DNA of 64,000 bases from Bacteroides sp. (GTDB lineage: Bacteria > Bacteroidota > Bacteroidia > Bacteroidales > Muribaculaceae). The stretch's first letter is position 1. Every line of letters starts with the position of its first letter. Below, in pieces: positions 12,791 to 14,845 of this stretch. The DNA lies in NCBI GenBank assembly GCA_014802345.1, contig JAAVCM010000027.1, positions 1 to 64,000 on the forward strand, read 5' to 3'. Both the position numbers and the translations under genes were made by a program. Below the pieces are notes generated by a model. It saw nothing but the letters and a program-made list of their open reading frames with translations, was not told the DNA's origin and did not search any database.

Positions 12791-14299
12791 TTAATTCAAT
12801 TTAATTACCTTATATTCCTGTTTCAGTTGCTGCGGATTAAATTGAATTAATTTTGGTGTTTTGCTTTCTTGTTTCTTTGGCATCAATGTTGCTTTTCTAT
12901 CAACACCTCTACTTACCATTAAATCAAACCAGTACCAAGAAATTTTTCCTGAAAATTCACCAGAAGGAAGGATACACCAATTGACAACCTGTAAATATGC
13001 GTCGTTTAATAAATTTGCAGGTAGAGTATAGTTGGCTTCCTGTACCGGCCCCTCTAATCTCTCCCTGATTTTATTTCTATCGGTATCGTTTATGTAAGTG
13101 TCATGTGGAGCCGGATTCTTTTTTATTTCTTGAGAGATGAGGAATGCAATCTGAGCATCGGTACATAATAAAGTCTTAAACTCACTTGTTCCCACTACTG
13201 CCCACGAATAGAATTTATCGGCATACGCGCTATGAACTGCATCTTTTGTTGAACGAATACGATAAACAAATTGATCATCAATAACATCTAAAGAAGCTGA
13301 AATATAATCACCATCAATATAAGGAGAATTGTATAGATCATCGACCTTTGTTGTTATAGCCATACGATTGATTTCACCGATTTCATTATTATTATCGTAG
13401 GCAACCGAAATAAGCATATACTTTTTATTGGTAGGAAGTCCATACCATGAGAAGTAATTACCATATTCACGGAATTGCTCGGGAGTACGTCTTACCCAAG
13501 TATTGTCATCCACATTATTAGATGTAGCTTTTTCAATGTCAGAATTAGTTAATCCATTTGCTTCCAATTCCGGGATAAGCGTAAAGTATACATGATGTAT
13601 ATTGTTACTGAATTCATATCCCCATACTGAACTTTCGGTTAGTGTCACCACATCAACTGGATGTGCGTAACATGAACTGATACCATGCTGAACTACTTCT
13701 TTTGTTATTGATTTAATTCCTGATTTCACAATAAAAGTAGCTCGTCTCTCAGTTGAATTATTTGTTCCAGTGGGCCAGACCTTGATTATTTTGTCACCTG
13801 TACCGCTCATATTTGAAATACTAAGCCAATCGGGTTTACCTTCAATTACCCATGAAGCATTACAAGTTATAGTGAGTTCTTGTGCGTGTGCCTGTCCATT
13901 CGCTTCCTTTGCAAATGGCGCATCGAGGCCTGACAGCTCAAGGATTTGTTCTGCTCCGGCCACTGTCACCTTAATGGCTTGAGAAAGTGAGCCGTCATCA
14001 GTCCTGACGGTGACAGATGTGGTTTTTTCTTCCGTAGATTCGTTTCTCTGTGCAATCAGTGTGATACTGTTGGTAGATTTCGACACACTCAACCAGTTGT
14101 CACCACCCGAAACACTCCATGAAGTGTTACTTACTACACCAATAGAAGTCGTACCACCATTTGAATTGAACGATACGGCCGTCTCATCCACTGATAGTGT
14201 AGGACTGACAGGTTCATCATCTTTACCGCATGAATTAAGAGCGGCACTCATCAATCCAACCATAACAATGGTCATCAGATTCCAAAAAAACTTTTTCAT
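12791..14299 (-). CDS. BACON-domain lipoprotein, C-terminal domain unknown
   Basis: The 502-aa product has a lipoprotein signal (lipobox LNSC, Cys about 24). Two BACON beta-sandwich domains follow: one at about 35-115 (SVDETAVSFNSNGGT, SNTSWSVSGGDNWLSVS) and one at about 118-210 (CNASWVIEGKPDWLSIS). A C-terminal domain of about 280 residues, which I cannot name, begins near YAHPVDVVTLTES. BACON domains bind glycans or glycoproteins such as mucin, or act as surface spacers. It is the first large gene after a strong promoter and leader, with the M6 sorted protease next. A pairing of binding lipoprotein and protease at the surface is plausible (inference). Confidence 0.8.
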   Translation of the reverse strand: MKKFFWNLMTIVMVGLMSAALNSCGKDDEPVSPTLSVDETAVSFNSNGGTTSIGVVSNTSWSVSGGDNWLSVSKSTNSITLIAQRNESTEEKTTSVTVRTDDGSLSQAIKVTVAGAEQILELSGLDAPFAKEANGQAHAQELTITCNASWVIEGKPDWLSISNMSGTGDKIIKVWPTGTNNSTERRATFIVKSGIKSITKEVVQHGISSCYAHPVDVVTLTESSVWGYEFSNNIHHVYFTLIPELEANGLTNSDIEKATSNNVDDNTWVRRTPEQFREYGNYFSWYGLPTNKKYMLISVAYDNNNEIGEINRMAITTKVDDLYNSPYIDGDYISASLDVIDDQFVYRIRSTKDAVHSAYADKFYSWAVVGTSEFKTLLCTDAQIAFLISQEIKKNPAPHDTYINDTDRNKIRERLEGPVQEANYTLPANLLNDAYLQVVNWCILPSGEFSGKISWYWFDLMVSRGVDRKATLMPKKQESKTPKLIQFNPQQLKQEYKVIKLN

Positions 14300-14350
14300 G
14301 TTTTGGTTTATTTTGCCTATCGACCCTCCTGATTCAGCAGTTTGTCTTAT

Positions 14351-14581
14351 TTACGACGAAAGCGTGAGAGTCTGTACTGTTGCTCGTTCACGCTTACAGA
14401 GGCTTCTCGCATTGCCCATCTCAGTAGAACGAGCAACGCAGAGGCCCACGCTTGTATGTAAAATCCAACTCTGCGCTTCCATACGAAAACGCAGACAATG
14501 AGATGTTACATCACCATGAGCATCTACCGTTGCTTCACTCCTGACTGAGATTGAAATTTTGCGAGAATTTCTGTAAGCCAA
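14351..14581 (-). other. Uncertain 76-codon leader ORF, or part of a structured 5' leader RNA
   Basis: The ORF (MAYRNSRKISISVRSEATVD...) lies within the transcribed leader predicted for the BACON/M6 operon. It begins about 105 nt after the likely transcription start and ends 51 nt before the lipoprotein ATG. It has no signal peptide and is Arg/Ser/Thr-rich. Its 3' half overlaps a long inverted repeat, GTTGCTCGTTC / GAACGAGCAAC. I cannot decide between a real small protein and a structured RNA; its placement argues that the leader has a function. Confidence 0.35.
14375..14437 (-). promoter_or_regulatory. Leader hairpin upstream of the BACON lipoprotein
   Basis: An 11-bp perfect inverted repeat, GTTGCTCGTTC and GAACGAGCAAC, encloses about 40 nt in the long leader. 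A smaller hairpin, ATAGCTG / CAGCTAT, lies nearer the transcription start at about 14625-14644. Together they suggest a folded 5' untranslated region. Confidence 0.45.
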
Positions 14582-14693
14582 GAATCAAGCGTCAAGTAAA
14601 CGCCTTCTATTCAGTATACGGTATAGCTGACTCGACAGCTATATCCTCCCACCTCCTAACCCACGACCCGGGCCCTGCAGATGGTCGGTAATG

Positions 14694-14724
14694 CAAAGAT
14701 ATTACTAATTTTACTGATTTCAAA
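14694..14724 (-). promoter_or_regulatory. Strong Bacteroidetes promoter for leader-BACON-M6 operon
   Basis: On the minus strand TTTG is at 14724-14721 and TATCTTTG at 14701-14694, with a 19-nt spacer. This is an excellent match to TTTG-N19-21-TAnnTTTG. Transcription would start near 14687, giving a leader of about 390 nt before the lipoprotein ATG. Confidence 0.75.
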
Positions 14725-14796: not shown

Positions 14797-14845
14797 ATTA
14801 ACTGCACCCCAAAAGTTTTTGTCTAACTTTTGGGGTGCAGTTAAT
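14797..14845. repeat. 21-bp perfect palindrome resembling paired IS3-type ends
   Basis: ATTAACTGCACCCCAAAAGTT, a 7-nt loop TTTGTCT, then its exact reverse complement. The segment CCCCAAAAGTTAGACA readable on the minus strand resembles the terminal repeats of IS3/IS150-group elements. The two ends point outward with almost nothing between them, as in a collapsed insertion remnant. It could also act as a bidirectional terminator. Confidence 0.6.

Follow-up and report, generated by a model that had tools for sequence, protein, structure and literature searches.

A family of structured leader RNAs in Bacteroidales that may switch between two folds ahead of mostly exported-protein genes

The leader studied here precedes a BACON-domain lipoprotein gene in a 64,000-nucleotide stretch of a Muribaculaceae genome (Bacteroides sp., contig JAAVCM010000027.1), which is called the window below; coordinates are window positions, and the leader, its core, all its parts and the two downstream genes lie on the minus strand. 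We observed that this leader belongs to a large RNA family that Rfam 15 does not contain. Its placement ahead of a same-strand gene, its promoter and its compensatory structure argue that it is a cis-regulatory RNA. In the model that we consider the most likely, with a probability of about 0.6, it would switch between two folds and thereby control read-through into the downstream gene. A previous sequence-only reading of this region had suggested an undescribed regulatory RNA or a leader-peptide control system. The former is supported by the lack of an Rfam match, the many copies, the strong covariation and the strict same-strand placement, and the latter is not supported.

The promoter announced by that reading is indeed present, with a TTTG element and TATCTTTG of the Bacteroidales type (14724-14694); a sigma-70 scan did not flag it because the scan uses the E. 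coli consensus. As the lipoprotein ATG is at 14299, the leader measures about 390 nt from the promoter, far above the usual 5′ untranslated region (UTR), whose median is 32 nt in B. thetaiotaomicron (PMC7366714). Only about 2% of the long 5′ UTRs of that species were given riboswitches by homology (PMC7366714). The fold of the leader has a z-score of -6.1 and none of 100 shuffles was equally stable. The two hairpins described previously, GTTGCTCGTTC/GAACGAGCAAC (14437-14427 / 14389-14379) and ATAGCTG/CAGCTAT, were both found, but the true unit exceeds them: the whole of 14350-14615 is a single conserved structured core, flanked by further conserved hairpins on its 5′ and 3′ sides (Table 1). 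Upstream of the leader promoter, and after the preceding same-strand gene, there is a perfect 21-bp inverted repeat, ATTAACTGCACCCCAAAAGTT, with a 7-nt loop (14797-14845). It is probably the terminator of the preceding gene and, given its position, the leader probably starts its own transcript.

In its own genome, a BLASTN search with the leader gave five significant matches besides the leader itself, distributed over four places, and the core occurs 5-6 times there; homologues in other genomes had E-values down to 1e-39. Copies that were 69-87% identical by BLASTN were present in 36 of 61 related genomes, including 33 of the 37 of its own family, with 1 to 12 copies per positive genome; copies in one genome are only about 71-76% identical to each other. 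In addition, a weak full-length profile match (24.8 bits) at about 1635-1922 of another contig of the window's genome, minus strand (L013, G000:C26), is perhaps a degenerate extra copy.

We then used R1, a sequence-structure model of the 265-nt core, whose E-values are rough and whose building sequences match by construction. R1 matched in 58 of 247 genomes from the order Bacteroidales and in none of the 147 other genomes from the phylum. When GTDB representatives were scanned for the pattern, R1 confirmed almost all the loci obtained; their labels, which come in part from record titles, are Muribaculaceae, Duncaniella, Prevotella, Paraprevotella clara, Bacteroides bouchesdurhonensis, Phocaeicola oris, Parabacteroides, Paludibacteraceae, Barnesiella, Alistipes and others. 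At the gathering threshold, Rfam 15 gave no match in the window, and in other copies no match overlapped the core; with the leader alone and E-values up to 5, the sole match was a chance one to a plant miRNA (16.2 bits). The phage and plasmid collections gave no match to the window copy, and no description of this RNA was found in the open-access literature searched. A shorter subtype of about 178 nt, with the same order of parts and different sequences, occurs in other Bacteroidales families; one example has UUCUUAUU between AAUAAGA and GAUAAGA. Some 5′ regions of this subtype (L202-L216) carry AGGAGG-like stretches, and it probably deserves its own model.

The first of the two folds is a rod in which the halves of the core are paired end to end through P1 (AAAGCGU:ACGCUUU), v1:v4, the loop of hairpin E with segment 3 (UCUCGCA:UGCGAGA), v2:v3 and segment 1:segment 2. 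The leader is neither unique nor devoid of covariation, the conditions under which the previous reading would have been refuted. Among the 69 sequences used to build R1, 91.9% of the pair cells of the rod are standard, compared with 33-48% when the partners are slid, and 422 cells are doubly changed, compared with 60-146 when slid and 136 when shuffled. We also applied a tree-aware null, a home-made test that approximates R-scape by letting each column evolve independently along the tree; 0/200 runs reached the observed pairing for each of P1, v1:v4, loop:segment 3 and v2:v3. The same kind of test on the whole alignment, which is conservative, retained seven significant pairs, all of them in the rod; helix-wise and alignment-free tests were therefore added. 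In an alignment-free partner swap, the own partner was better in 98-99% of cases for the rod helices (99% for E-loop:segment 3). The pairing of segments 1 and 2 (helix C) is nearly invariant (GCAAC/GUUGC), so that covariation is uninformative there, and conservation suggests that segment 1 is the partner of segment 2. G-U pairs are common in the helices, which points to a function at the RNA rather than the DNA level. The v1 and v4 strands (core columns 38-42 and 214-218) are hypervariable, but they always remain complementary to each other, and they differ between copies of the same genome; this divergence possibly reflects selection against cross-pairing between leaders.

The second fold uses the same segments locally. 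Its 5′ hairpin comprises P2, D and E, including GCGUUUAUC:GGUAGAUGC, and its 3′ hairpin is terminator-like, with P4 and B followed by a T-run. With the tree-aware null, D, E and P4 each gave 0/200 and B gave 3/200; helix B has 88 doubly changed cells when 22 are expected. Together, D, E, B and P4 are 84.6% paired, compared with 41-52% when slid, and in the partner swap the own partner was better in 95% of cases for B, 84% for D, 84% for E and 78% for P4. The rod and the terminator helix B thus share segments and both covary, as would a mutually exclusive antiterminator and terminator. Segment 2 accordingly keeps two evolutionarily maintained partners, with conservation as the evidence on the segment 1 side. 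Another candidate, helix A (segment 2:segment 3), was set aside: its complementarity is strong and, because it is invariant, not significant.

The position of the copies was examined where enough flanking DNA was available, taking the longest ATG open reading frame (ORF) for gene starts. Of the nearest downstream ORFs, 142 share the strand of the copy and 2 are on the opposite strand; for the nearest upstream ORFs, the corresponding counts are 51 and 59. The first downstream ORF starts at a median of 54 nt past the core. A TAnnTTTG element was found upstream of 138 of the 162 copies; when the opposite strand of these regions was taken, the number was 28. The core ends with ACGC and a T-run, and at least 5 T are present in the 8 nt after the stem in 146 of 153 copies; the T-run expected of an intrinsic-terminator attenuator is therefore found in nearly all copies, while that of the window copy is weak. 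By a simple hydrophobicity rule, under which signal-peptide calls are crude, the first downstream ORF appears exported or membrane-bound in 108 of 151 cases (72%), compared with 33% of the other ORFs at the same loci. Pfam annotation of 121 downstream proteins gave the BspA-type leucine-rich repeat as the commonest family (22), besides Big_2, DUF4595, BACON, LytTR, GIY-YIG, peptidase C10, DNA methylases and others. A link with defence genes was rejected, as PADLOC hits other than DNA methylases were not among the listed downstream families.

How the two folds might be used was approached by prefix folding of 40 sequences, that is, equilibrium folding of growing transcripts. D was the earliest to appear (0.83); segment 1:2 (0.97) came next, and the rod (0.92) after it. 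In the model we favour, the 5′ hairpin would form first during the progress of RNA polymerase, segment 2 would next invade it at segment 1, and the rod would zip up by strand exchange ahead of completion of the terminator stem, resulting in read-through. A clamp on the 5′ hairpin (a protein, a metabolite or another RNA) or a faster polymerase would give the terminator instead. Since prefix folding gives the rod before the terminator stem, read-through is likely the default. The opposite polarity of the switch is possible in this model, since P1, which belongs to the rod, lies directly beside the T-run as well.

Several observations weigh against such a switch. The rod too ends in a stem beside the T-run, and which fold terminates is uncertain. 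The local fold is weaker than the rod, with 65 versus 422 doubly changed cells, counted on different pair sets. In the window copy, the T-run is broken (TTTCGTCG) and termination there may consequently be weak. The computed energies of this copy are -109.7 kcal/mol for the rod, -36.2 for the 5′ half and -44.5 for the 3′ half, and in all 13 sequences examined the rod beats the sum of the two halves by 13-40 kcal/mol; with the rod so favoured at equilibrium, termination would need help or kinetics. Finally, the local stems and parts of the rod could exist together, as a kissing-loop fold, instead of excluding each other.

Two alternatives come next in probability. The leader might be a static rod only, a long hairpin protecting or processing the mRNA, such as an RNase III site or a 5′ stabiliser, with the local complementarity as a by-product of repeated motifs. 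The far stronger covariation of the rod and its energetic advantage in 13/13 sequences would suit this explanation, but we consider it unlikely, since in 95% of sequences helix B comes out longer with its own partner than after a swap, helix B has its excess of doubly changed cells though its main part cannot form inside the rod, and the T-run and P4 are conserved. It is less probable still that the leader is a ligand- or protein-binding RNA in which the 5′ and 3′ hairpins meet by kissing between the E-loop and segment 3, v1:v4 and v2:v3 being a tertiary fold and not an alternative one. Indeed the apical loops are complementary and covary (99% in the partner swap) and stems D and B are both conserved; however, v1:v4, the loop and v2:v3 together would make more than 20 bp between closed loops, which should be topologically hard unless the stems open.

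Other explanations have much less in their favour. A stand-alone small RNA ending at the T-run, with accidental downstream genes, would account for the promoter-like element and the terminator-like end, yet it is very improbable in view of the 142 same-strand genes among 144, their short distance from the core and an extra hairpin that, in about half of the copies, separates the T-run from the start codon. A repeat spreading by transposition, like a miniature inverted-repeat transposable element, is hardly credible: several copies per genome are found, some near contig ends, but those of one genome are far from near-identical, nearly all carry the promoter and the gene in the same arrangement, their compensatory changes keep G-U pairs, and the window copy is without match in phage and plasmid collections. 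As to attenuation by a leader peptide, the complete 76-codon ORF reported before does exist in the window (14581-14351). Its chances are nevertheless negligible, since only 13 of 147 homologues have no in-frame stop, 46 of 147 length differences are divisible by three, when chance predicts one third, and the TTG start falls inside a conserved RNA stem. The frame was consequently rejected as a coding element.

Bacteroidales dominate the mammalian gut and, to our knowledge, few of their regulatory RNAs have been described beyond homologues of known riboswitches. With leaders of one family ahead of leucine-rich repeat surface proteins, lipoproteins, proteases, peptide precursors and DNA methylases, we would be dealing with a regulon not seen before and with a shared signal for accessory exported functions. 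If switching occurs, the two-fold architecture would be a natural example of strand displacement in nascent RNA. We put forward tentatively, as a wider proposal with somewhat less than even chances, that the family is a new order-wide class of switch in which half-hairpins exchange strands over their full length, by toehold strand displacement, and gate many genes, mostly for exported proteins, in response to one shared signal.

The leader resembles intrinsic-terminator attenuators and transcriptional riboswitches by its location in a 5′ leader upstream of the gene to be controlled, its competing helices and a stem followed by U's. It differs from them in having neither an Rfam match nor a known ligand, in that the competing fold is a rod of the whole core, and in preceding many unrelated genes and not those of one pathway. 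T-box and peptide-leader attenuators likewise rely on competition between terminator and antiterminator, whereas Rfam gave no T-box match for the leader, and its peptide frame is not conserved. The motifs of Weinberg et al. 2010 (Bacteroidales-1 RF01693, Bacteroides-1 RF01694, Bacteroid-trp RF01692) are also structured RNA candidates from Bacteroidales or Bacteroidetes; they are in Rfam, and the window has no match to it above threshold. Among the candidate RNAs of Fremin and Bhatt 2021 (PMC8040213), HMP2_4205 (132 bp) and HMP2_1065 (80 bp) are palindromic, come from Bacteroidetes and have predicted terminators, and HMP2_1881 (108 bp) lies near radical SAM genes. All are much shorter than the 265-nt core, and it is by description and length that we set them apart, so that a partial overlap is possible.

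Table 1. Features of the leader and of the downstream genes (window positions)
Feature	Position	Strand	Remarks
Promoter, TTTG and TATCTTTG	14724-14721 (-33) and 14701-14694 (-7)	-	Bacteroidales type; 19-nt gap
5′ hairpin at transcript start, CGACC .. GGTCG	14660..14687	-	then G-rich stretch 14656-14645
Variable hairpin ATAGCTG/CAGCTAT	14623..14642	-	sequence not conserved
Conserved 265-nt core (model R1)	14350..14615	-	R1 225.9 bits, E 5e-69, partly by construction (window copy among the 69 building sequences)
P1 5′ strand GAAGGCGT	14600..14607	-	closes rod with 14358-14365 ACGCTTTC; 95.8% of cells paired; 4 pairs changed on both sides
Stem D 5′ strand TTCTTGGC	14577..14584	-	local fold; partner 14538-14545; 94.9% paired; 0/200 tree-aware simulations; contains spurious TTG start of 76-codon ORF
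v1 TTACA	14572..14576	-	rod partner v4 TGTAA 14394-14398; four pair types per position
Hairpin E GAAATT-CTCGCAA-AATTTC	14553..14571	-	loop complementary to TGCGAGAA in segment 3
v2 and stem D 3′ strand	14538..14552	-	rod partner of v2 is v3 (14418-14425)
Segment 1 GAAGCAACGGTAGATGC	14520..14536	-	GCAAC pairs with segment 2 in rod; GGTAGATGC closes local 5′ hairpin
P3 variable hairpin joining the two halves	14451..14518	-	last bases overlap P4 start
P4 5′ strand AGCGTGGG, terminator-like stem	14445..14452	-	partner 14361-14368; 0/200 simulations; 91.3% paired
Segment 2 GTTGCTCGTTCTAC	14424..14437	-	partner segment 1 (rod) or segment 4 (terminator helix B)
Segment 3 GGGCAATGCGAGAAGCCTC	14399..14417	-	apical loop of local 3′ hairpin; rod partner is hairpin E loop; 99.6% paired; 5 pairs changed on both sides
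Segment 4 GTGAACGAGCAAC	14379..14391	-	3′ strand of helix B
Terminator-like stem end and T-run	14354..14368	-	interrupted in this copy: CTCACGC-TTTCGTCG
Candidate 3′ hairpin GCTGAATCAGGAGGGTCGATAGGC, just 5′ of start codon	14315..14338	-	counterpart of GCC-AACGAGAGGATGACCGC-GGC elsewhere, assigned by position and resemblance only
BACON-domain lipoprotein gene, 502 aa	12791..14299	-	downstream gene 1
M6 peptidase-domain protein gene, 775 aa	10392..12719	-	downstream gene 2

The domains flanking the core align poorly from one lineage to another; for this reason RNAalifold over all lineages yielded no structure for them, and the evidence left is lineage-wise. Both stem sides of the 5′ hairpin differ between copies (CAGACCG/CGGTCTG versus CATATCG/CGATATG), which is weaker evidence than for the core. 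On the 3′ side, a GCC..GGC-type hairpin is present in 70 of 151 copies, and its conserved form lies about 10-30 nt before the start codon, for example in L017 and L036.

In five loci (L038, L069, L105, L141 and L160) the leader precedes small Cys-rich proteins beginning like 'NEELQSRRxFFKKAAK..LPILG', and in L038 and L069 a SPASM/radical-SAM-like gene comes next; these are possible ribosomal-peptide clusters. In an IMG/VR contig classed as viral (L200:384-2378), the gene after the leader encodes a 577-aa EF-Tu-like protein. The N-terminal extension of this protein is unusual, and GHVGHGKT replaces GHVDHGKT in it. In L080, L146 and L148, the leaders precede small P-loop proteins beginning like 'MKILLIYGEQDAGKTT'.
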